Made by a program: the position numbers and the translations under genes. 64,000 nt of DNA, from NCBI GenBank assembly GCA_033065855.1, contig JAVXUO010000138.1, positions 310,001-374,000 of the forward strand, read 5' to 3'. Shown here one piece after another: positions 2,579 through 58,255 of this stretch. Every line of letters starts with the position of its first letter. Positions within the stretch are counted from its first letter, which is position 1. This stretch comes from Escallonia rubra. Its lineage: Eukaryota > Streptophyta > Magnoliopsida > Escalloniales > Escalloniaceae. The notes beneath the pieces are model-generated. The model did not search any database and was not told the origin of the DNA. It worked only from the letters and a program-made list of their open reading frames with translations.

Positions 2579-4912
2579 AATGGCCTTCGTATGTTATTAT
2601 CACCACCCCCCACCCCCACAAACAAAACCAAAACTAAGCTCTTAGTAGAAATACATCAGGATGCTATGAAGTTAACCTTGAGTAGTCTCTTATGTACCAA
2701 AAGAAATGAATTAGCGTCACTCTTCAAATTTTAGGTGCTTCAAACTAGCCTAGATGCTTTCCTCTCTTACTTGTCTCAGTGACTTAACTTTATAGTCAAC
2801 CAAAACATATCATGCAAAAGTTCGTAACATTAGTACGAAACACGTTCTGGCAAACGGCAAAGATTTTTAAAAAAATACGGTAGTAAAGTTCAGCTCCAGA
2901 GTCCAAGCAGCAGTCTTTTTCTTTCCCTTCTACTCAGAAGCATGCTGCATATATGAAGCATCCCTGGAGGAGAGAATTCACCACAGAGGGAACTTCATGC
3001 GAGATCTACAGACTGCAAGGCCTTTTGTTTGCTCTGAGTTGGGTTCCAATCACTGTTTCTATATAGTGCCATCAACTGGATGGTGTTAGCTGACTAAATG
3101 TTGAGGCCTGAATGGAAGAGGTCGGTCCCTCTATTCCCGCACCTTGTACCTTTTTGCATCTCCTTCGGTCTAAAGTTTTCTTTCAAAAAAGCCCCTTCAC
3201 TGCCAATCAGTGATTGTCAGTCATGTATAAGAGCTTCTTTTCTCGTCATGTTTACTTCGCAGGTAATCTAACCACTTCCGGAAAAAGGAAGTAATCCTTT
3301 GAAAAGACGAACGGGATAGTGAATATGTTGTATGCGTCCGTGAAAAAAACATTTCTCATCTGAGCAAATGTAGATAGTTCATCTACCTTCATTTACGTAA
3401 AATATACTTCTCAAAAAGTTAAAAAGGGAAGAGCATGTGCGCGCACAGGTTACACGTCAAATCACATAACATGTTCTCCGTCTTTTTTTCAATTTTGACA
3501 ATTTATTGGAACAGAATAAACAAAGATGTCCAGACGGCATTTCACCAACACCCCCAGGGCTTGCAAACGCATCATGCTTTGTCTCAGCTTGATGGAACAC
3601 CTGAAAGCAACACAATATAATCTGTATTCATCCACTATGGAAAACAAACACGTTCCCTAAGAGAGAAATGAATAAAAGCACCTACAATGGTGAAAAATTA
3701 AATATCTAGACTCATAGTCCATTTGCATTGCAAGCTACCTATGCTTAGGAGTAGGCTTGCCATGACTGAAGCAGCTTGGCAGTAGCTCACTTTGCTAGAT
3801 CGACCTAAGTCACAAGCCCCAAACCATTCTAAAGCTCGTACACCCAAAAAGGACTACACTAAAAAGAGTCTCAGAGATGTCCAGATACGAGGTTCACAGG
3901 CTATGAAGGTACAATTCAGCTACAGGGAATGGTCGAATTATTTTCAAAAATCTCCACCGGTGCTTTTAAAAACAATATACCCGTTTTGGTCGCCCTCAAC
4001 CAATAAAGTTTATTTCTTGCAGAGACTCCCTTCTGTCAGAAAAAGGGAAAGCCTCGTGCTTCCCATGATCAGCCAATCTCGGCTAGCCAAACCACGTATG
4101 GACAAAAACCTGACTTAAAAAAACGTCCTTTTTAGCCAAGTCATGCCCGAAACCACCGCTCTGGTTGGCTTTTTTATGCAAATACTACACCGGGTGAATG
4201 GGCATGACACCCGAGTCCATCTACAGGCACTAGATGCTTTCAGTGAGTGTCTTTAGACTACACAAATTACTCGAGAGTGCCTGATTTACTCTCCTTACCA
4301 TGATTGATACTGATTCCAGGCAACACTTGCATAGATCTTCACATACCAAACGAGCATATCAGGACATGCATAGTTAATCACCATCATTGACTGCTTACAA
4401 GAAAAACCATGAAACTTTTGAGATTGCAGAAAATACTTACACCTTGGTCCCAAAGTAGTTGAAGCACCTACATAAAGTAATTAATCGAGTGATATATTTC
4501 TAGCAAGCATCCCTATCCATGTCATCTTTTCGTGTACCCACATCTCTTCTATTCTTCATCAACTTGGCAAAATTAAGGAATGGTGACATCCCAAGGCCTA
4601 CACAGAAACCATCTCAAACTTCCCATCTTTCTTTTCCTCCATTACCACTCAGATCTCAATTAATCCTTCCTTATCTGGCCGCCCATTGACCTAACTACTT
4701 GTAATTCTAGCAATTAAGACCATTTTTCAGCACGATTCATCTTATTTAATATCTACCCCATCTATTCTTTCCCCGTCAACTTCACACGAGTCACTTTCCT
4801 TCACTAAAGCATCCCAGGCCTATGATAATAGTCGAGTGATTCTTCCTCGCCTTTCCAGTAAGTTGTGGCACCTTAGCTTCCTCTGGGTACTTTCGTTCTT
4901 AGTTGCACAAAG
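2579..4912. other. Intergenic, no gene recognised
   Basis: About 2.3 kb without a supportable gene. The short open frames at 3435-3620 and 3792-4118 have no recognisable family and no splice context. Confidence 0.5.
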
Positions 4913-9707: not shown

Positions 9708-10206
9708 TTTCTTTTTCTCTTTTTCTTTTAGGAATGTTCAACTTAGACTTTATAAATGTCCCAAGTTCGATTATTTACCTGTTAGTCAGAGCTCATAAGT
9801 ATCACCAATTGTGATGAGTGTTTTTTCATGTTAGGCTCATTTTAGTAAGTTCCTATAATTGAGTATAACATGCAAGAATCAAGAATTGAACTATCAATTA
9901 AAAAGTCTGTTTGGAATTAATTTTGAAACGATCAAACTTAATTTGTTTTAAATTAATTTAATCATGACTATGTTTCGAAAAGATAAATAAAAGAGTTTCG
10001 AAGAATTACACAATTACACGTCATCGGTCAACACATTTCCCACGGATGCCAATTGTTTATGTCGCATGTTATACTTATTTTCTCATGTAACACGAGGCTG
10101 GCGCCGTCACGCGGTGTACATTCAACCCCCTCACTCACCCTCTCCATGGACCATCTACAAAAATCAGCGGCAGCCAACAGCAACTCTTGACCAGTCTCAG
10201 ATTCCA
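9708..10206 (+). promoter_or_regulatory. Promoter region of truncated OPCL1 copy (left duplicate)
   Basis: From about 9708 to 10140 this is nearly the same sequence as 14965-15440, upstream of the right OPCL1 copy. Shared landmarks are GGAATG then TCAACTTAGACTTTATAAATG, and ACACGAGGCTGGCGCCGTCA. The left copy lacks both the 38-bp duplication and the foldback element found on the right. It therefore approximates the older promoter arrangement. Confidence 0.7.
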
Positions 10207-11454
10207 ATGGCGACAATCGACCCGAGAAGTGGCTTCTGCAAATCCAACTCCGTCTTCTACAGCAAGCGCAAGCCCATACCTTTGCCCGCAAGCGCCTCGC
10301 TCGACGTTACCACCTTCATATCTTCCCGCGCCCACCACGGCAAGACCGCCTTCATCGATGCGTCCACCGGCCGCCGCCTCGCCTTCTCCGACGTCTGGAG
10401 AGCCGTCGACTGCGTGTCCTCGGCGCTCTCCGGCATGGGGACTCGCAAGGGCCAAGTCGTCCTCATCCTGTCCCCCAACTCCATCTACTTCCCTATCGTT
10501 TGCCTCTCCGTCATGTCGCTTGGTGCCATCATCACCACCACCAATCCCCTCAACACCACCCGCGAAATCGCCAAGCAAATCGCCGATTCCAAACCGGTGC
10601 TCGCCTTCACCACCCACCAGCTCGCCCCAAAACTCAACAACTCAAACCTTCCGATCGTTCTCATGGACAAGAACGACCCCTCAAATCCCATCAAAATTTT
10701 GACGACCCTAGACGACCTGATGAAAGCAGAACCAAAACAGAGTATGATCAAGGAGAGAGTCAACCAGGATGACACCGCAACTCTGCTTTACTCGTCCGGT
10801 ACAACTGGTGCGAGCAAAGGCGTGGTGTCTACTCACAGAAACCTCATCGCGATGGTTCAGACTATTGTATGCCGGTTCCGTTTAGACGAAACAGCGCAAA
10901 CGTTCATCTGCACCGTTCCCATGTTCCACATCTACGGCCTAGCGGCGTTCGCGACGGGCCTACTAGCATCAGGATCGACGGTGGTGGTGCTCTCGAAATT
11001 CGAGATGGACGAAATGCTGTCGGCCATCGGAAAGTACAAAGCTACCTATTTACCACTCGTGCCGCCGATACTGGTGGCGATGGTGAATAACGCGGACGCT
11101 ATCAACAAAAAGTATGACATGTCCACGTTAAAGTCTGTTCTGTCTGGTGGAGCGCCGTTGAGTAAGGAGGTGATCGAGGGTTTTGTGGAGAAGTATCCCG
11201 CGGTGAACATCTCGCAGGGGTACGGACTGACGGAATCAACGGCGGTTGGGGCATCGACGGACACGGTGGAGGAGAGCCGGAGGTACGGCACCGCAGGGCT
11301 GTTGTCTCCGAGTATGGAGGCGAAGATCGTTGAGCCGGAGAGTGGAAAGCCGTTGCCGGTGAACCGGACGGGGGAGCTTTGGCTGAGGGGACCTACTATA
11401 ATGAAAGGTACGGTTATTATTGACAATGTCGGCCATGCTATTTTGCTGCTTTAA
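10207..11454 (+). pseudogene. OPCL1-like acyl-CoA ligase, exon 1 only (truncated duplicate)
   Basis: Exon 1 runs 10207-11407 (1,201 nt, same length as the right copy) and encodes residues 1-400 of an OPC-8:0 CoA ligase-like protein. The adenylate motif [21 protein letters not shown] and QGYGLTES are intact. The start is ATG 10207 ([10 protein letters not shown]) by family match and by the right copy, although the frame is open from 10066. The donor site at 11408 (GTACGG) survives, but exons 2-5 are absent. Only about 250 bp of intron 1 remain, split by a Helitron, before the duplicate ends near 14545. Reading through the donor reaches a stop at 11452-11454. Any product would be an N-terminal domain without the C-terminal catalytic lysine or the SKL signal, hence almost surely inactive as a ligase. 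It differs from the right copy at only about 10 residues. Confidence 0.88.
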
Positions 11455-17170: not shown

Positions 17171-19617
17171 ATGGCGACAATCGACCCAAGAAGTGGCTTC
17201 TGCAAATCCAACTCTGTCTTCTACAGCAAGCGCAAGCCCATACCTTTGCCCGTAAGCGCCTCGCTCGACGTTACCACCTTCATATCTTCCCGTGCCCACC
17301 ACGGCAAGACCGCCTTCATCGATGCGTCCACCGGCCGCCGCCTCGCCTTCTCCGACGTCTGGAGAGCCGTCGACTGCGTGTCCTCGGCTCTCTCCGGCAT
17401 GGGAATTCGCAAGGGCCAAGTCGTCCTCATCCTGTCCCCCAACTCCATCTACTTCCCTATCGTTTGCCTCTCCGTCATGTCGCTTGGTGCCATCATCACC
17501 ACCACCAATCCCCTCAACACCACCCGCGAAATCGCCAAGCAAATCGCCGATTCCAAACCGGTGCTCGCCTTCACCACCCACCAGCTCGCCCCAAAACTCA
17601 ACAACTCAAACCTCCCGATCGTTCTCATGGACAAAAATGACCCCTCTACTCCCATCAAGATTTTGACAACCCTAGACGATCTGATGAAAGCAGAACCAAA
17701 ACAGAGCATGATCAAGGAGAGAGTCAACCAGGATGACACCGCAACTCTGCTTTACTCGTCCGGTACAACTGGTGCGAGCAAAGGCGTGGTGTCTACTCAC
17801 AGAAACCTCATCGCGATGGTTCAGATTATTGTATGCCGGTACCGTTTAGACGAAACAGCGCAAACGTTCATCTGCACCGTTCCCATGTTCCACATCTACG
17901 GCCTAGCGGCGTTGGCGACGGGCCTACTAGCATCAGGATTGACGGTGGTGGTGCTCTCGAAATTCGAGATGGACGAAATGCTGTCGGCCATCGGAAAGTA
18001 CAAAGCTACCTATTTACCACTCGTGCCGCCGATACTGGTGGCGATGGTGAATAACGCGGACGCTATCAACAAAAAGTATGACATGTCCACGTTAAAGTTT
18101 GTTCTGTCGGGTGGAGCGCCGTTAAGTAAGGAGGTGATCGAGGGTTTTGTGGAGAAGTATCCCGCGGTGAACATCTCGCAGGGGTACGGACTGACGGAAT
18201 CAACGGCGGTTGGGGTATCGACGGACACGGTGGAGGAGAGTCGGAGGTACGGCACCGCAGGGCTGTTGTCTCCGAGTATGGAGGCGAAGATCATTGAGCC
18301 GGAGAGTGGAAAGCCGTTGCCGGTGAACCGGACGGGGGAGCTTTGGCTGAGGGGACCTACTATAATGAAAGGTATGGATATTATTGACAATGTTGGCCAT
18401 GCTATTTTGCTGCTATAACAGGTCATGTAATGTTATATGCTTTTCATCTGCCATGTGCTATGTCACATCTATCACCTCCAACCAAACCATTACTTCAAAT
18501 AATGCGCTATCTCGTGGCGCATTATTTGGCATAAGTCGCTTGCAATAGTAGCGACTAGCGAAAGCCCCGTTTGGTTGTTATATTTTTGGCATAAATCGCT
18601 TTCAATAGTAGCGACTAGCTAAAGCCCGGTTTGGTTGGTTATATTTAGTGAAACTTGTAAGCTTGAGCTAATGGTTGGAATGGTTTTGTTGCAGGTTACT
18701 TCAGCAATGAAGAAGCAACTGCATCAACTCTAGATTCAGATGGGTGGTTGAGAACCGGAGACCTCTGTTATATTGACGAGGATGGCTTCATTTTCGTGGT
18801 CGATAGGTTGAAGGAGCTGATCAAGTACAAGGGCTATCAGGTGTAAATCGTGAATCCACCCCCCCAACGTCTTTCTTTAGTTTTCTTCTTAGGTTCAATG
18901 TACTCTGTACCTTAACGTGGTTGGTCCATTTCCTTGGTGATGAATTTGTTCATACGCGTTGGTTTTTAGTAAGAGTGCGTTTATGTATCATGTCAATTTA
19001 GAGATTCCCATCTAGGTTTCGTTTCAGTTATGTGAATAAGCTCATTATTTGATGCAGGTTCCTCCAGCAGAACTAGAGGCTCTGTTACTCAGTCATCCAG
19101 AAATTGCTGATGCTGCTGTTATTCCGTAAGTTCCATTCCCCATCATATCAAACAATTAGTAACATCCGTGCCACGAAACAAAATGAAAATTAGCAATACT
19201 TATTTGGTCCATAACCCCTTCCAATAGTTATGCAAATGATCTACTTATGAATTGCCATTTTTGGACTTTGGGAGAGCTAAGTTTTGATGATTCGGTTTGC
19301 AGTTTCCCAGATAAGGAGGTCGGACAGTATCCCATGGCATACGTGGTACGAAGAACTGGAAGTGATTTGTCGGCGAGTGCAGTCATGGATTTCATTGCTA
19401 AACAGGTTCCATTCGTTTGTTGTTCAATGCGTACTGCAAGCATAAAGCGGTTTAATAATGAGGTAATCTTTGTTAACGTTTCGGTGGTTTTGTTGCATTG
19501 TAGGTGGCTCCATACAAGAGAATCCGGCGAGTGGCGTTTGTAACTTCCGTTCCCAAGAATGCATCAGGGAAAATACTCAGGAAGGATCTGATAAAGCTTG
19601 CCACCTCCAAACTTTGA
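17171..19617 (+). CDS. OPCL1: OPC-8:0 CoA ligase-like (4-coumarate--CoA ligase-like), 5 exons
   Basis: Exons are 17171-18371, 18695-18840, 19058-19125, 19303-19405 and 19504-19617. All introns are GT-AG and the frame is continuous, giving 543 aa. It belongs to the ANL adenylate-forming superfamily. Visible motifs are [14 protein letters not shown] (193-206), PMFHIYG (238-244), QGYGLTES (337-344), the RTGD element in exon 2, [11 protein letters not shown] at the hinge, and [13 protein letters not shown] with the catalytic Lys529. It ends in SKL, a type-1 peroxisomal signal. Length, N-terminus ([20 protein letters not shown]) and SKL fit Arabidopsis OPCL1 (At1g20510) better than true 4CL. That enzyme activates OPC-8:0 before beta-oxidation in jasmonate synthesis. 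Exact substrate is inferred from family. Exon 1 is markedly GC-rich. Several exon 1 residues differ from the left duplicate and from the family as I recall it (A28V, T79I, T219I, S257L, S310F, A349V). It appears functional. Confidence 0.93.
18505..18650. repeat. Intron 1 palindrome and tandem repeat
   Basis: A near-palindrome ATAATGCGCTAT...GCGCATTAT precedes two tandem units of about 66 bp beginning GGCATAA(G/A)TCGCTT and containing AGTAGCGACTAG. The same structures lie at 11535-11561 and 14446-14545 in the left duplicate, where the Helitron separates them. Confidence 0.75.
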
Positions 19618-37649: not shown

Positions 37650-40600
37650 TAATATTTTTGTGGATGCCATGTCTATTTAGCTAATTGGGCTAGCCTTTTG
37701 AAAAAGCAAAAAAGATTCTATTTCCACAGGTTAAGTTTTTTTGTCCATTGAAGGCACTTGGGCTTGTGCTACAATGTGGAGCATTCTCTTTAAACCTCCC
37801 AATTCCTAGTGTGGGCGCAAACTGAATCGAAATCTTTTGTTACCTTTTATAAGGGTATAAGTTTTCGTTAGTTCCTTTATTTCCTTGAAATTGTTTCAGT
37901 ATAGGTCTTGAAAAGAGAATACCTTAACGTTCCTCTTGGAACGCGAGATAAAAGCTACGAATATGATAGGATAAGTTGGGATGAATAAGAATTATTTTTT
38001 CTCCAGTCACGCATAAGAGATGATGAGGATTTGTGTTCCTCTCGTGTTTGGATGACCATAGGACTACATCCTGGATAGAATTTTAATTTTATCATTTTCT
38101 TTTTAATTAAACATGCTGCCCACGTGCCACAAAACGATCCATTAACATAACACACATAAATCAACGGATAAATTCTCACAAAAAGCAGATTGAGAGCAAT
38201 ATTGGATCACCGCAAAATTGAATCCACATGGTCTTCACCGCAACCATTCATGAAACTGAATGACAATAGAGCATATCGAGAGCAAGTGGAGGTGGTGGTA
38301 TCATGGTGGAATTTTATTAAAGTCCGTGGGAGCAGCAATGAAGGTTGTGAACAGTGAGTTGGTCGAGGTTGTGGAGTTTGAGCGTGGTGGTGGAGGTGGC
38401 CGACAACAGTAAGGTGGCAAGGGTTGCAAAGGGTAGTAGCACCATGGTGAGGGTGCTCGATGGTGAGAACATTGAAGTGGGAATGTGCCTACAGTGACCA
38501 GTTGGATGGTGGGGTGGTGTTGACTAAAAAGAGAAGAAGAGGGGAAGAGTTTTTATCTAATCTTGGTATAGTAAAGCTTATACCCTCCAACGGTCCAACC
38601 CAACCCCTCAACCCCCCGTGGATAGAATTACTCTGCTCGAAATGGGATAAAACCCATTCTTCAAATTTCCTATTAGACCATTATTTGATGCCCCAAACAC
38701 ATGGATTCTTTGGAAGCACAAATTTGTTCATCATATACGTAGCATTTACTCGACATGCCAAACACAACTTAAGAGAAGATAAAATCTTTTCAATGACTAA
38801 TGTTTTTGAAATTTATTTCCTTGCAATGAATTTCAAGTGTGTATGTTTTTATGTCATTATTTTAATACCACGCCTGATTTTCCTTAGTCATTTGTGGAGA
38901 CTTTATCTAGAATATACTTGAGATGAATGGGACTGGTATCAGATGTTAGTGAGTTATGTGTCTCGATATTGTTTTAATTAGGTTTCTTAACATGTTTTCC
39001 TTGCATGTTCTTATGTAGGCAGATATTGGTTCCATCAATAGCTGCCTCCCAAGAGAAGTTCCAACCACACCGGTTGTTCGATATGGACCAAACAATCACA
39101 GAGTTAACCATGATGACAGAAGTTACACGGTCGTCATGTACGACTTCTTTAAGAGATGCAGTCTTACCATGTGTGCAACATATTAGGTCATTGGATCTCA
39201 CGTTCTCAGGTCATAGCAACCTCACCGTCGGATCACCCTTCTATAATAGGCCTTCATAAGTACTACAAAATTCTAATGATGATAATATGTTGTTGATCGG
39301 CTTATAATTCGTAAAGCGTGCTAAAGTTTGGTGTTCAACTCGAAAGCATACTCGTAAGAAGAACCAGTCTTTCAGGTATAAGAACTGATCACAATTTCCA
39401 TATATAATTAATATGACTTTAACACCCGTCCTTACGCAGAGCGCAGAATATGAAGTGATTCCAAGTCTTGAGGTGAGTAAAGGGAACCTTCAATTTGAAA
39501 AAAGCCGACAAGGTAGTAACTTGAAGATCACGAGACATGAGCAAAGCTCAACTCTTATACTATATTAAAGTGATGTCCAAATACAAAGCATGCTAACATA
39601 AAGTATAAGCCTACAAAGTATGACAACAAATCCCATCTAGCTGTATCACGTGCGTTGCATACGGATGATCATATTTCTCAAAACAAAATTTGTGGTAACT
39701 TTGCCTGTAGCTTTAGGCTACAACCCCTTCCCCCGTCCCCGGTGATAGTTAATTTTTCATTAATTACTTTTAGTGACAAATGGTAAAAAGATATTGCAAA
39801 GAAAATGACTCGATAAATGTAACGAACAACATTGAAGTACAATTGAGGCTATTTATATTGTCACATTGCCTAGAATAATACACATGATATATATTGTATC
39901 ATTGTTAACTTACAAATAATTAATTACTAATAAATATTACCGAAGCATGAAAGGAATATACATGGCCAATATAGTGTGAAACAAATTTTAATTAGATCAA
40001 TGAGAAAATAATAATTGTGGAAACTTGATTAAGGTGCTATAATTGCAATTACTTTTGAAATTTAAATTGATTAGATAACTTTAATTGATCGGTGAGAGAA
40101 CATAATTTAAAAATGGAAAATGATAATGATAAGTGATTAAAATCGGTTTCAGATAACAATAAATAAAATTCACGTGGAACAAGAGAAAGTGTCCACATAG
40201 ACAATGAGGTTGACACATTCTCTCAGCTTCGACTTTCATGTATCTATACTATTTTATAATGAGAACAATACTTTTGGTGTAATACCCTTTTGGTGTTACA
40301 CTGAAATTCATCCGGCTATTGACACTTGTCCTTTTGAGGGATAAAATCGTAAAACACTACTCTCCAATAACTTCAAACTCCCCCACTTTACACTTACGTA
40401 ACTGCCTTTCCATTCTGATTTTTGGCATCTCTTCATTTTCCACTCTCATTCTCCCTTCATTTCCCCTCCCCTTCTCTACAATTATAGGAGACGTTTTGTG
40501 CGATTGGTGGCGGTGGGTGGCGAGACTTGAGGGTTGTGGGTGGGCCGATCGATGGAAGCCGTACAATGGTTGGTCAATTGGTGGCCCATGGTGCGCAACA

Positions 40601-40946
40601 GGTAGTGGTGGTTGTGCGGCGGCGTACATGGATGGTTGGTGTCGGACTGCTCCGACAGCAACCATGGGTGGGTCGATCGATGGAGGCTGTGGGTGGGCCG
40701 ATCTATGGAGGACATGCGTGGTCGATCAGTGGCCTCGGCTGGTGGCTGTTGATTGCCCTCGGCCCTCGCCGGAGATAGTGTACGGCGGCGAGCAGGAGAC
40801 TTCGGCAGGCATATGGGCACTCGGGTTTGCGGTGGCGGAGATTGTGATCGGAGCTCCGGTGTGGAGGAAGACCGACATTGGCAGGCAGTTGAGCCGTTGA
40901 GGAGGTGTCGGAGATTGATGCATGGTTTTAAATACAAATATAAAAT
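37650..40946. other. Gene-free repeat-rich stretch
   Basis: No supportable host gene in 3.3 kb. The longest open frames (plus 38460-38921, plus 40319-40900) have no recognisable domain. The latter is a GC-rich Trp/Gly-rich low-complexity translation of GGTGGG-type repeats. A TCTATACTATTTTATAATGA motif near 40246 may begin another Helitron-like repeat. Confidence 0.45.
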
Positions 40947-41756
40947 GGGTTAATTACAAAACTGTCAACTGAGGTTTACACGTTTTTGCACTTTGTCCCC
41001 CGTGTTTATAACTTTTGCAATAATGTCCCTCGAGGTTGACAAAACCGTTGCAAATAGTCCGTCCAATTTTGGACGTTAAGTGATCACATGCCATATTGGC
41101 ATGGGAAAATTTGTAATTTGCCTACTCATATTCCCCATGTCTACCAACTGAGTCTCTCCGAGTGAACTCGGTCTCTCAGCTAAGTTTCCAGGGCGAGGTG
41201 GTAATGAGTGGCCTCGAATGCCAACCCAGCATGAGACACCCATCATGCTCATCCACCATATACCCAACCCCACCGGTGAAGAGGGCCAACAACATGCTAG
41301 CCTGCTTGAATGCGTTGGATTAGAGCCCCGATGGACCGACCCGAACCAGTCCGAGTCGAGCTGAGCCCTCCACTGAGCCAGGGTCTCGTGTCGCTCAACC
41401 CGGTCCACCCCTTCGGACGCCACCAAGTTGCAGATCTGCCTCCCCAGATACACATCGGACATCACCTTGTCCTAGCTGCTCACTGTTGACCCACCATCCC
41501 TACCACCACCGCCACCCTACCTCCACAACCCTCCAGCGAGTCAAACAGGGTCGAGTAGTAATGCAACGACTAGGTAAACCGGTCCAAGAACACTGACCCA
41601 TTATGGTTAGACTCCTGCTCAACCACAGTCAAGATCTCCGGCTTCATTTCCTTCACAGCAAATAACACCTTCTCAATCGCACCGGGTCGAGCTAACAAAG
41701 GGTGCAACTCGAAGACCGAGTTGACAGCCACAACTTCATCTTCTCTGAGGTCAAGC

Positions 41757-41787
<31 letters not shown>

Positions 41788-42314
41788 TAAAGAGACTGTA
41801 TAATACGCTATACAAATAACTTGAGCATGAGGCTCTGTAACAGCTCTAAGTTACAAAAAGCATATTTTTTATATGAACGCTGAGAGCCCATCTCGTTTTA
41901 GTCTGATTCTGTATTTTTTGCATCCGATGACCATGAAAGAGTGTTTCCTTTTCCATTCTTCTCTGCTACAAAAGCTGATCCTAGTTTCCGTTTGAATTTG
42001 ACGGGATAGAACACATGAGGTTTTACTTGACTAGCTTGCGGTGGAAGAGCTGTAAGGGCATACGTAAGCCTTGACGAGGGGTTCTCAATTAAACCAGTGG
42101 GGAAGATGGGTAAGCAAATTACAAATTTGCCCATGCCAAAATGGCATGTGCACCGCACATGATCACTTAACGTCCAAAATTGGACGGACGTCCAATTTTG
42201 GACATATTTGCAACAGTTTTGTCAACCTCGAGGGACATTATTGTAAAAGTTGTAAACACGGGGCGCAAAATGCAAAAACGTGTAAACATCAGGGGACAGT
42301 TTTGTAATTAATCC
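40947..42314. mobile_element. Pack-MULE (Mutator-like, long TIR) carrying DELLA sequence, 1,368 bp
   Basis: Starts GGGTTAATTACAAAACTGTC and ends with the near reverse complement (...ACAGTTTTGTAATTAATCC). Inverted repeats extend about 190 bp on each side and share GTTTACACGTTTTTGCA and CCAATTTTGGACGTTAAGTG. Flanking 9-mers ATATAAAAT (40938-40946) and ATATGAAAT (42315-42323) differ at one base, fitting the 9-bp MULE target duplication. No transposase. The interior is a captured piece of a DELLA/GRAS gene, with a GA microsatellite at about 41757-41777. A second member of the family lies at 54658-55794. Confidence 0.92.
41176..41758 (-). pseudogene. Captured 3' end of a DELLA (GRAS-domain) gene
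   Basis: Minus-strand translation gives [55 protein letters not shown] and SLHYYSTLFDSLEG, then [20 protein letters not shown] and HETLAQWRA. It finishes with [32 protein letters not shown] and S-stop at 41178-41176. This is the C-terminal half of the GRAS domain (VHIID-distal, PFYRE and SAW regions) of a GAI/RGA-type DELLA repressor of gibberellin signalling, including the native C-terminus. It is not functional: there is an in-frame stop after DRFT (about 41570) and at least two frame changes. The protein is lost, but sequence similarity to a true DELLA gene should remain high. Confidence 0.9.
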
Positions 42315-42949
42315 ATATGAAATTAGAAGCACATCGTCATCGTCCATTTCGCAAGTGATCAGTTGGTGTGTTTCTGACAATTGGGTCAGAGTCAGGTGAT
42401 TGAGAGAGAGACAGATTCTAAGACTTTTTTCAAGATTTTTTTTTTCCAATGATTTTTTATTTTAGATTTAGGTATCAGTGATGATAATAGTATTTGTTTG
42501 AGTTGTAAAGTGAATAGGTAGGAAGAAGGGTGGCAGATTAGATAGACCAGTTTTTGGTATAGAACTAAGAATTATTAAATGCAAAGAGAGAAATGAGAAA
42601 CAATTACAACTTGCAAAAATAATGTTTGGATGTGTTAGGCTCTTGCAAGTAAGATATTTGACCCACAATGTATGCTTCCACTTGATTCATGTATGCTTTT
42701 TGGTGCCGTAATATTAAATATATTTTTCTAATTTTTGTCATATAACCCGTAAATAGTGATTAAAAGTTATTTAATGACATATATGCACACGCATCGCGTG
42801 TGCACGGCAACTCGTTGCCAATTATGTAAATCTTACAAGTAAAAAATCTTGAAGAACAAAACGAAAAAAAAAAGTATAAATTCTTGGCTTAGAGAACACT
42901 TGACGCAGTTTTTTTTTCAGTTTTGAAAATTGAAAATTGAAAAAAAAAA
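42315..42949. other. AT-rich intergenic DNA
   Basis: No gene. A GCACACGCATCGCGTGTGCA palindromic stretch at 42786-42805 resembles the 3' stem of the Helitron-like family noted at 36467 and 63066. Confidence 0.4.
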
Positions 42950-43373
42950 GTGCGTTTGGTAACCATTTTTTTTTTCCTTCTCCAATTTAAAAAATCAGTT
43001 TTTAAACTAAAGAGTAAAAAAAAAACTCCTAAAACTAGTTTTTTTTTCACTTTTGGTTTTTTTTTTTGTGAGACCACCACCACCACCCTCCCACCGCCGG
43101 CAGCCACCTTAGGCTACCACCGCCGGCCGCCACCTTCGACTGCCGACAGTCATCTCCGGCAGCCGGCCACCACCTCCACCACCACCGCCGAGCCACCGGC
43201 CGCCGCCACCACCACCAAAAAAAACCGCAAAAGGGTTACAAAATACAAAAAAAAAAAAAAAAACTCAAAAAAAAAGGGTTATCAAAAACCCACTTATTTT
43301 TATAAAAAAAAAATTTTTAACTGTTCTTTAAAAACTGAAAATCAAAAAAAAAAAATTTGTCAAACGAACCCTT
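42950..43373. mobile_element. Small non-autonomous inverted-repeat element with CCACCG-rich core
   Basis: The left end GTGCGTTTGGTAACC and right end TTTGTCAAACGAACCC are imperfect inverted repeats. Next to them come poly-A/poly-T-rich arms (TTTTTAAACTAAAG; TTTAAAAACTGAAAATC). The core (43075-43220) is CCACCACC/GCCGCC-rich. It is low-complexity and not a gene. Confidence 0.45.
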
Positions 43374-44394
43374 AGCTTCACAATTGGCAAGGCAACGACG
43401 AGTATAAGATTCCATATGTAGGCCATGGGAGACTTCAACAATGAGTATAAGAATATGGCGTTTTGCTGGGGGACCATAACCATGATATTGCTTATTTTGA
43501 CAAGATACTTTGAAATAGGATATTTATCAACAAAATTTTTGCCTGCTACGGGGATGGAGGCCTACTCGTCGTTAAGAATTTAATCGAATAGGAACGGAGA
43601 ATACCTATGTCGACCGTTAGATTTTTTTTTTCTTAAGACGATATTTTTTTCCCTATATTGCAACGGGTTGTAGCATGTCTAACTCTCAAGATAAAACAAG
43701 TGATCATTAGCAACTCTATGCAGAGTAGTAACTGAACGAAAGATTTCATTATTTATGAAGAAAAGCCTTGACGGTTATAACCAGTGCACCAAAAGATGTC
43801 TTTAAAGAGATTTAATTAATTGTAAATACAAGGAAACCCAAAGGTCCATTAAACCTCGCTTGAATAATATGGTCTGAATAATTTCCGTGCCCTCCCCATT
43901 AAGAAATAGAAATTCGTCACTAAAGCTCATTAGTGGGCCCAGCCTTGATCAACATTTGGGCCTTCTCCGTAATGTGATTCTTCTGGGCTATTTGATCCAT
44001 TTATCGGGTAATGCAAAGCTTTGAGTCCAGCCTACACACGTTACCTTGAGAACGGATATCTGCTCCAACTCTACCTGGAACTTCTACAACTAACTCTGTT
44101 TAGAAAAACAGAAAATCGTCACTAAAACTCATTAGTGGCATTTTTATGTTGTCGCTACCTTAAAATTGTTGCTAAAATCTTTTTAGAAATGTCGCCACAA
44201 ACTTATAGCGAGAACGAAAGCTCCAGAAGCTATGAAAGTATAACAATTCTTCTCAATAACTTCTGTTTTTGCTAATACTCTGTGTCATTTCATAGTTATT
44301 AGAAGCAATGCCCGTGCATTGCGCGTTGCTATAGTAATGTTTTATGCAACAACAATCTTTTTATTTTGTTTTAAAGCCCAAAGGTTATGAAGCC
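43374..44394. other. Intergenic, no gene recognised
   Basis: Short repeats such as CGTCACTAAA(G/A)CTCATTAGTG appear at about 43914 and 44117. No coding sequence supported. Confidence 0.45.
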
Positions 44395-45810
44395 ACCTCC
44401 ATCTCAATTGTTCTGAATAAAGAATAAGCTTTGAACATAAATGTAAATAACTGAATAATGGTAACAAATCATTTTCACTTAAAGTAATGCTAAGCCTCTT
44501 CATTTTTTTTGTTACAAACTGATTCCAAGCTATGATGTAGGAATAGATGTTCTGCAAAGCATAAAAAACTGTTTAACTTGGTGAGTATTAAAATTGTTTA
44601 ACTTCATAAATACTGTATTTTTTACTTTTACATTTTATTTTTCTTAAGCGTAATATGTAGGGGATATCAACGGGCTTTCTCAATACGTCCTAACTTAGCC
44701 ATGGTGATGGCTATCTTTCGTACCCCTTAAACCACTCTTGTAATGGTATTTTATGTATATATGACTTCATGTTATTATTATTAAGTAAAATGCAATGCAG
44801 AAATACACATAATGTTAGATATAGATGCTTGAAAAGTCGATGAACTACATCATGTATGATTTATGAAGGTGGGAACGTGACATGCATTCAACTTGTGAAT
44901 GAATTAGCAACATTATTTCAGAGCCACATGCTACACACCTAAACAAGTTTTGCTACTATGAAATGATCAAAAGCATCACACTAATTAAAGCAAAAAAAAT
45001 AAAGTTGGTGAAAGAATGTGAAGCATGTACGTACGCATGGTAAAAAGGTTCATTAATGGTTCCTTTATCTTTTCATTTCCACCTTGGCCGGAAAAATACG
45101 AGATTTGGGTAGACAAGGACTATTTAGGATCTTCTCTAAATTATTTGACCGACAAGAAAATTAATAAACAATTTCAGTTCTCCAAATAATGATTTTGACA
45201 AGTCCATGCTGTTATAATAAGTAGTATTAATAATTGAGAAAATAATTATTGAGCGTGATCCTCACCACGACATCAATGTTACTTAAACAGTCAGAGAATA
45301 GACTCAGTAACCTCTAAAGATTTTGACGATAAGAAGTAACAACTTAAATACAATGACATCCTTGCTAAAAAAAAGGACGAAAGAAAAGAAGAAAAAGAAA
45401 AAGAAATGCTAGTTGCACCTATATGTATTTGAATAAAATTTCGCTCTTACACGGGTTGTAGGAATCTTCCTCTAATCCCGTATATAGTAACAATTAATAG
45501 TTGTTAAATATATTTAGTGACTTTTCTTTTAACACTTTCAACGATAATTATTAGCAATACATTTTTAACGTCATTAAATAAATATCACTAAAAATATTTA
45601 TAAACGATTTATTATTACTATATTGAGAATACGAGGAAGATTCATCTGATCGGAGTAGAGCCAACTATTTTCTTATTTATAACCGGTCATTCATAATTGC
45701 AGCAACAAATTAAGGCTTTAATGTTCTCCATGCCGACACGGTACTACGTATATGCGTGCGTGGCGCTCATATGATAATGACACTTTATTACAAGGTAACG
45801 AAGCATAAAC
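44395..45810. repeat. Segmental repeat copy A
   Basis: Matches 52160-53475 (copy B), and in part 53488-54260 plus 56083-56200 (copy C). Landmarks are AGCTTTGAACATAAATGTAA, ATATGTAGGGGATATCAACG, a GATGAACTACATCATGTATG block and TCATATGATAATGACACTTT. No gene inside. It lies upstream of dehydrin 1 as copy C lies upstream of dehydrin 2. Confidence 0.8.
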
Positions 45811-46727
45811 CATTATTATTATTATTTGTTTAACAAATGTTAGTACAGAATTAGACCGCGTCACGTGATTAAGATCCGGCAGACACGTGCGCGCCCAGGT
45901 GGAAGGTACGAAAAGAAGAAAGAAGAGTTTCATGTGAGAGCGCAACTGCAGCAAACTTAGCTCCAAAGGAACAAACTCTGCAATAAACGTCAAACCGACC
46001 ACCTGTCACCAGGCGGGTCCCACTCCCCATCGGGAAGGTGACAAACGACTGCGTATTGGGAGATGGTAGCCCCACATGAAAACGTATCATTATGCCGTGG
46101 CCCCACACACACAAATCTCGAAACTCCTCCGTTTCACCCCTTCCATTCACAGTCCTAGAAAATTATAGCCTGGTCTGATATTTTTTATCTCGAGTACTTC
46201 AGACCGTCTAAATTCTAGCTTCTCAGTCCCATCAGATTAATTACAGAGTATTATTCAATATACAAAGTTTATACGTTCTATCACCGTGTCGCACGATTAG
46301 CTTTTGAATAAACCTACCACGTACAGAAGATTAGGTTTTGAATACACCTAGCACGTACAGAAGTAAATTATATGAAGACGATGAAATTCATTTTTAAATT
46401 GTCTGCTATACTTGAATCGATCAGTTCTGATATCACGTGAAAGTATCAAATTCAAAATCAATTAATTATAAAGAGAGATGCCTACAAGCCTTGTATATTG
46501 AAGGAGTATTACTTATTAGAAAAAAAATTGGTTGCTAGAATCTTCATCTAACCACATGTATATTGACAATTTACAGTTGTTAAATGTTTATAGTGACTTT
46601 TCTTCTAACACTTTCAACAAGAATTATTGCAACACTTTTTTAATGTCACCAAATAAAAGTCACTAAAAATATTTAAAAACGATGAATTACCGCTATACAT
46701 AAGATAGAAGGAAGATTCTTCCGATTT

Positions 46728-57639: not shown

Positions 57640-58255
57640 CGATGGGATGGGCTCACAACCCTAAAGCCCTCGTCGACATAATCAACCAGGGGCTCCGGCC
57701 CTCGCACGCACATCAACCGACGGGCTCCGGCCCTCGCGCGTGGGATGGGCTCACAACCCTAAGGCCCTCGTCGGCACACTCAACCGGGGGCTCCAGCCCT
57801 CGCCCGCACAATCAACCGACGGGCTCCGGCCCTCGCGGCGGGATGGGCTCACAACCCTAAGGCCCTCGCCGGCACACTCAACCGGGGGCTCCGGCCCTCG
57901 CCCGCACAATCAACCGACGGGCTCCGTCCCTCGCGGCGAGATGGGCTCACAACCCTACGGCCCTCGCCGGCATACTCAACCGGGGGCTCCGGCCCTCGCC
58001 CGCGCAATCAACCGACGGGCTCCAGCCCTCGCGGCGAGATGGGCTCACAACCCTAAGGCCCTCGCCGGCACATTCAAACGGGGGCTCTGGCCCTCGCCTG
58101 CACAATCAACCGATGGGCTCCGGCCTTCGTGGCGGGATGGGCTCACAACCCTAAGGCCCTCGTCGGCTCACTCAAGCAGGGGCTCCGGCCCTCGCCGCAG
58201 GATGGGCTCACGACCCCGAAGCCATCGCCGGCACAATCGTCCGACGTGCTCGTAG
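57640..58255. repeat. 98-bp tandem repeat, about 6-7 copies
   Basis: The landmark GATGGGCTCACAACCCTA recurs at about 98-bp spacing (near 57645, 57743, 57841, 57939, 58037, 58135), and a shorter last unit is near 58201. Between them are GGGCTCCGGCCCTCGC blocks. Inside the LTR-type element. Confidence 0.9.

Follow-up and report, generated by a model that had tools for sequence, protein, structure and literature searches.

The 1368-bp segment at 40947-42314 of the window, the 64,000-nucleotide stretch of Escallonia rubra DNA analyzed here (G000:C2177:310001-374000), is a non-autonomous Mutator-like element of the Pack-MULE type. Our preferred reading, to which we give a probability of about 0.88, is that the element belongs to a multi-copy Pack-MULE family that was probably mobilized in trans by a MuDR-type transposase and whose members would share one capture of a DELLA gene fragment, followed by replacement of the interior. 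The element itself is of an ordinary kind; the history of its family is unusually readable.

Both ends of the window element begin with GG(G/A)TTAATTACAAAACTGTC. Inverted-repeat comparison placed the left terminal inverted repeat (TIR) at 40947-41132 (plus strand) and the right TIR at 42098-42314 (minus strand); aligned with each other, the two TIRs are about 190 (191) and 217 bp long and differ by 15 mismatches and 26 gap positions in 217 columns. The arms at 40937-41056 and 42205-42324 are complementary at 89% over 120 nt, and more arms lie further in. The element is flanked by two 9-bp copies of the target site, ATATAAAAT on the left (40938-40946) and ATATGAAAT on the right (42315-42323), which were delimited by flank comparison and by empty sites and which match at eight of nine positions. 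A genome search with the joined flanks found three places (C865, C864, and C605) where the flanks run on uninterrupted, the element is absent and a single target site, ATATGAATT, is present. The C864 sequence ends at the end of its contig, and a fourth match, at 71% (C592), was not counted. These three unoccupied related sites confirm that the window element was inserted, and because they carry a single ATATGAATT, the mismatch in the left copy of the target-site duplication (TSD) is most simply a later change. A search against a plasmid collection gave no match.

The TSD comparison took in 24 members of the TIR family, including two without DELLA sequence. The flanks agreed at eight or more of nine positions in 22 elements and at all nine in 14, vs. 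6 and 0, respectively, of 552 mismatched flank pairs, so the flank match is not due to chance. The count of 22 includes C473, which reaches 8/9 only after its end is shifted by 1 bp (the unshifted total is 21/24), and the ends of C3128, C3127, C2655, and C2088 were extended by one to three bases where the match had started at query base 2 or 3. The two elements below eight matches were C3199 (7/9) and C2088 (5/9). Flanks were 95-96% alike within the pairs C3127/C3128 and C1658/C782, which are therefore not independent insertions. The TIRs, the TSDs of the family and the empty sites together uphold the initial annotation, made from the sequence of the window, of a Pack-MULE with long inverted repeats and a 9-bp TSD matching at 8/9.

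The interior of the window element is accounted for by two pieces of host sequence and its longest open reading frame (ORF) is 129 aa, so the element has no transposase of its own. The larger piece (41133-41762; element positions 187-816) was aligned to an intact DELLA gene at G000:C2705, an uninterrupted 586-aa ORF of 1761 coding nt, with 92% DNA identity and with GRAS similarity present. The piece lies in sense orientation on the minus strand and contains the final 571 coding bases (41176-41762; 2972-3542 of the donor locus L009) together with 43 bases past the stop codon (41133-41175, minus strand; L009 3543-3585). It is thus the 3' third of the coding sequence and not the 3' half that had been proposed. 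The GRAS domain (PF03514) was detected on two translated pieces (E = 1.2e-22 and 2.1e-9) and, with the donor match, bears out the earlier claim of a captured DELLA/GRAS C-terminus with its native stop. The GRAS domain in the window element is partial and frameshifted; an intact GRAS domain and the N-terminal DELLA domain are absent from it. Comparison with the donor revealed a 5-bp insertion that shifts the frame (41318-41322, minus strand), a 2-bp deletion and two in-frame stops, one of them at 41570-41572 (minus strand; translated as LDRFT*). A third insertion scored at the far end of the piece is probably an alignment artefact. The annotation of the piece as frameshifted and unable to make DELLA protein agrees with these indels and stops.

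At C269 (L010 2774-4209) lies a truncated copy of the C2705 DELLA gene that spans its 3' part and the sequence downstream of it; this duplicate is about 1.5 kb long (89%) and contains a 217-aa ORF. This duplicate was rejected as the donor: diagnostic sites favored C2705 by 13 vs. 4 of 19 in the window copy and by 14 vs. 5 of 19 in five other copies that span the full piece. C2705-like and C269-like sites were nearly even in short copies (4:3 in C1749 and 3:2 in C2327), and the others cover two sites. Judged by these diagnostic sites, the source of the DELLA piece is C2705, or else a close ancestor or an allele of that gene. The existence of the C269 duplicate lends something to the idea that the window fragment is itself a segmental duplicate or a processed DELLA pseudogene that lies between repeats by chance, but this idea is refuted by the empty sites and by copies that are bounded by TIRs and carry TSDs, and the second, unlinked donor piece within the same element also makes it virtually impossible.

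The second piece (41763-42097, minus strand; with its overlap, element positions 811-1151) matches C2482:176182-176520 at 92%. The two captured pieces meet in a GA-rich repeat (41757-41785), and the left limit of the second piece falls inside this repeat. C2482 was the only non-element site of the piece when all 15 of 15 candidates were scored, and family TIRs were absent from the 4.0 kb read at that locus.

A search of the 566-Mb genome with the DELLA piece, in which 32 of 32 candidates were scored, detected 24 element copies with at least 59 bp of DELLA sequence (two of them at C1749) and five with 46 bp. This census sets aside the donor, the C269 duplicate and a paralogue, C1653, and does not count extra short pieces of the same copies. 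TIRs adjoin the DELLA piece in all 24 of the longer copies and in all five of the 46-bp copies. Twenty-two of the 24 copies were aligned (C1031 and C1010 were left out, and C1031 was added for the tree), and 16 of these 22 have the identical donor start base. The junction in C2327 is a 5-base variant of the common one; in C2088, C1461, C1881, C1658, and C782 the DELLA sequence starts nine donor bases deeper, and the TIR edge before it is longer. Four sites have the same base in C2705 and C269 and one other base in every copy that covers them (22, 22, 22, and 19 copies). The element copies form one clade with 97% ultrafast bootstrap, within which the deep branching order is poorly resolved (supports of 12-55%).

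Given the four shared substitutions, the tree and the junction common to most copies, the simplest reading of these sequences is that all DELLA-carrying copies would descend from one capture. Repeated, independent capture of this DELLA region would account for the many different inner breakpoints and for the five copies with a different TIR junction. Such a history is highly improbable when substitutions common to every covering copy, a single clade and a donor start base shared by most of the aligned copies are set against it. The junction of the five-copy class may reflect either conversion of the TIR or a separate capture.

Under a single capture, the copies differ mainly in what follows the shared junction: the DELLA sequence beside the left TIR is kept across copies and the other side varies. 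The longest DELLA piece, about 1.0 kb, was found in C831, where it extends to donor position 3914. In the class to which the window element belongs, the DELLA sequence runs to about 3530 and is followed by the C2482 piece. In C1749 and C1395 it runs to 3230 and is followed by a piece of a LEA_2 gene, and in the five copies with the longer TIR edge it runs to about 3227 and is followed by a piece from C1843 and then by the end of the C2482 piece. The DELLA sequence stops at 3110 in C2327 and at about 3055 in C816, C2655, C2412, and C1031. An internal stretch is missing from C1486 and C3199, and part of the interior is duplicated in C408. C1843 is the sole non-element site of its piece (11 of 11 candidates scored), and the 1.7 kb read there contains no family TIRs. 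No Pfam match was obtained with the peptides tried from the C1843 and C2482 genes.

The LEA_2 insert of C1749 and C1395 has DELLA sequence on both of its flanks. Its donor is at C2367:1547004-1547546, which is 94% identical to the piece in C1749 and 93% identical to that in C1395 (40 of 54 candidates scored); family TIRs were absent from the 3.5 kb read at this locus (L084). Past the LEA_2 piece, C1749 and C1395 read GGAACAGCCGGTAA before the TIR, which is the end of the DELLA sequence as in C831, with one mismatch in C1395. The DELLA tail at this join is 14 nt only, and the 14-mer GGAACAGCCGGTAA is on neither strand of the 3.5-kb L084 sequence. DELLA sequence on both sides of the insert is the footprint predicted for internal gap filling in an existing Pack-MULE. 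Short matches at the joins, TAC and GGA, were noted by eye; they would fit microhomology-guided repair and are too short to serve as proof.

Two side observations concern the LEA_2 class. C1749 (L016 663-3487) is a compound element in which two DELLA/LEA_2 units are combined with three TIRs, and the 9-mer TATTAATCC is present at both of its outer ends and between the units; its structure resembles what a tandem duplication of an element together with its target site might produce. Numerous LEA_2-like matches lie at about 0.91-1.59 Mb of G000:C2367, probably a large gene cluster.

The mechanism that we propose begins with a family with ends GGGTTAATTACAAAACTGTC in which DELLA sequence came to adjoin one TIR, the first capture being probably about 1 kb, as C831 still has. 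Away from the shared junction, the DELLA sequence was replaced, in different lineages, by pieces of C2482, the LEA_2 gene and C1843, presumably through repair of internal gaps in which the template switched, at short homologies, to ectopic donors. C831 is the copy furthest from the donor (8.4% divergence) and, because the deep supports are also weak, a C831-like ancestor is suggested by structure and not by the tree. On this reading the copies form a natural series from one capture, from about 1 kb of DELLA sequence, through elements in which the middle has been replaced and both edges kept, to those with 46 bp left. With such a series, gap filling as a model of Pack-MULE formation can be examined in plants.

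The transposase is probably supplied in trans, by relatives of a 5.8-kb element at C847. A 20-base TIR end occurs 288 times in forward and 295 times in reverse orientation in the genome, vs. 0 and 0 for a reversed control. Among the matches listed, at least 27 inward-facing pairs were counted by eye, 24 of them spanning 923-1610 bp and three spanning 5829-5847 bp. The C847 element is 5829 bp long and has 219-bp TIRs at 95% identity, a 9/9 TSD, a MuDR-family DNA-binding domain (PF03108) and a SWIM finger; the first 111 bp of its TIR are 88% identical to those of the window element. Stops or introns interrupt the transposase reading frame of C847, and a 113-aa ORF between PF03108 and the SWIM finger had no Pfam match, so that a catalytic domain was not seen there. 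Elements at G000:C2239 (L027) and G000:C1684 (L028) share the TIRs and have no DELLA piece. L028 presumably resembles the N-terminus of a CDPK-related kinase; this kinase-like reading had no Pfam match.

Coding function of the DELLA piece was rejected. At least one frameshift and at least one in-frame stop were present in each of the 10 copies with a long DELLA piece, and distinct variants among 22 copies were spread over codon positions 1, 2, and 3 as 64:56:73 (chi-square p = 0.32). Frameshifts and even variation among codon positions show that the DELLA piece is not a protein gene. That the element encodes a short GRAS peptide under selection would have a candidate in the 129-aa ORF, which starts from GTG at 41465 on the minus strand, but against the disrupted frames of all 10 long copies and the even codon positions this proposal carries almost no weight. 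Rfam returned 0 structured-RNA matches at the gathering threshold for window 38000-46000.

A role through small RNAs, which the initial annotation had put forward as inference, was also considered. As DELLA is a central repressor of growth, a small-RNA effect, if any, might show in plant stature. In the window copy, 148 perfect 21-mers to the donor coding sequence are antisense on the plus strand and 0 are on the same strand, with a longest run of 96 nt. The copies jointly cover 782 of 1761 nt of the C2705 coding sequence, 22 nt of the paralogue C1653 and 0 nt of C3100 (23 DELLA units counted, without C1010 and the five copies with 46 bp), and a link of this sort would possibly be specific to one DELLA gene. 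The family could then act as a dispersed source of small RNAs that tunes the C2705 DELLA gene, with antisense transcripts made from TIR promoters, processed by Dicer and altering mRNA or methylation of the donor. There is precedent for parts of this route: TIR promoters drive expression of Pack-MULE interiors (PMC3310237), and Pack-MULEs, Helitrons and Sirevirus elements of maize that contain pieces of 1629 donor genes are described as siRNA reservoirs in the available text of PMC13317346. Nonetheless, we consider such tuning rather unlikely, since perfect matching already follows from a recent capture, the donor remains an intact ORF, and there is no sign of selection that keeps the DELLA piece, many copies retaining only part of it. 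Within the single-capture history, the DELLA piece would instead be a non-coding passenger, the copies would mostly be silenced like other transposable elements, and any small-RNA effect on the donor would be weak at most.

The genome contains a second MULE family that has captured the N-terminal part of a DELLA gene. A search with the DELLA domain model (35 of 35 candidates scored) gave 24 matches, three of them in ORFs of 543-601 aa. Nine loci and then ten more were read, and two matches on C358 were left out. Inverted repeats of 98-235 bp were detected in all nine of the first loci, and both ends were found in seven of 18 loci scanned; five of the seven have a 9/9 TSD, one has 8/9 and one 7/9. 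Comparison of the window element with one of these loci, L037, revealed no TIR similarity (best E = 0.023). In the six copies that were compared with C3100, similarity over the captured N-terminal part is about 76-77%. In L071-L075 and L080 (G000 contigs C613, C3195, C2910, C917, C1983, and C2231), an A20 zinc finger (PF01754, tested on L073) lies in frame with the DELLA domain in a 168-aa ORF that starts from ATG. The other members are L032-L040, L078, L079, L081, and L082; among these the A20-DELLA ORF is cut short in L081, frameshifted in L033, changed at the N-terminus in L078 and L079, and absent from L082.

The A20-DELLA ORF was examined for signs of conservation. Five copies differed by 11 synonymous and 14 nonsynonymous changes, with 6.9 synonymous changes expected (one-sided p = 0.059). 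Among ten copies the mean difference was 3.58% vs. 3.67% in the preceding stretch; the stretches behind the ORF differ more (14.6% and 21.6%), in an alignment that crosses repeats and TIRs there. By this measure the ORF shows no greater conservation than the sequence preceding it, and selection, though possible, is not claimed. Two MULE families with unlike TIRs have thus captured and amplified opposite ends of two DELLA genes in one genome. The N-terminal DELLA region is the part that binds GID1. If both families acted, the gibberellin pathway would be tuned jointly by small RNAs that the C-terminal pieces direct against C2705 and by decoy peptides encoded in the A20-DELLA ORF, a suggestion that we regard as very doubtful.

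The family resembles several known systems. Rice Pack-MULEs, reportedly those of Jiang et al. 2004 and Hanada et al. 2009, are likewise non-autonomous MULEs with TIRs and gene fragments of unlinked donors; unlike them, the family described here has captured the 3' end of a DELLA gene and has graded interior replacements beside one shared junction. Helitrons are a different class of transposon, not known to have TIRs and TSDs. Fragments of GIGANTEA associated with Helitrons, which have reportedly been described, are, as here, pieces of a key regulator gene. Serial gain and loss of gene fragments is also a feature of the stepwise-capturing Helitrons of maize (PMC3288121). The tomato element PM-ZIBP is similar in that one gene fragment was amplified and variants with multiple TIRs arose (here at C1749); 13 copies of PM-ZIBP have tandem TIRs and one has a single pair (PMC3310237). 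The variation described for PM-ZIBP is in the number of TIRs (PMC3310237), whereas here the captured interior itself was exchanged. About one third of rice Pack-MULEs are multicopy (PMC8277862), and two or more parents are given for 5-10% of MULE-derived putative genes (PMC4858842).

The mechanism by which Pack-MULEs acquire sequence was described in 2012 as not yet understood (PMC3310237). The internal replacement observed here fits either the gap-filling or the FoSTeST model of Pack-TIR formation, which were studied in animals; testing them for plant Pack-MULEs was called worth exploring (PMC8277862). A literature search of titles and abstract openings among the matches listed, with few subscription journals represented, found no capture of DELLA by a Pack-MULE, and DELLA is not mentioned in the available text of a 2026 review (PMC13317346). 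PMC8616336 was set aside as a DELLA-capture paper, as the match in its available text was to the name Dellaporta.

The window contains 17 ORFs of at least 150 aa. Of the five compared with Pfam, one is a BPS1 gene, two are AMP-binding (4CL-like) ORFs, one is an amino-acid transporter and one a dehydrin. The transporter ORFs precede the element by about 8 kb, and the dehydrin ORF follows it at a distance of 6.4 kb. The two AMP-binding (4-coumarate:CoA ligase-like) ORFs, at 10066-11454 and 17171-18418, are 97.6% identical over 1248 bp and form a tandem duplication about 7 kb apart. An ORF at 57740-58255 consists of tandem repeats, as seen by eye, and is probably a minisatellite.
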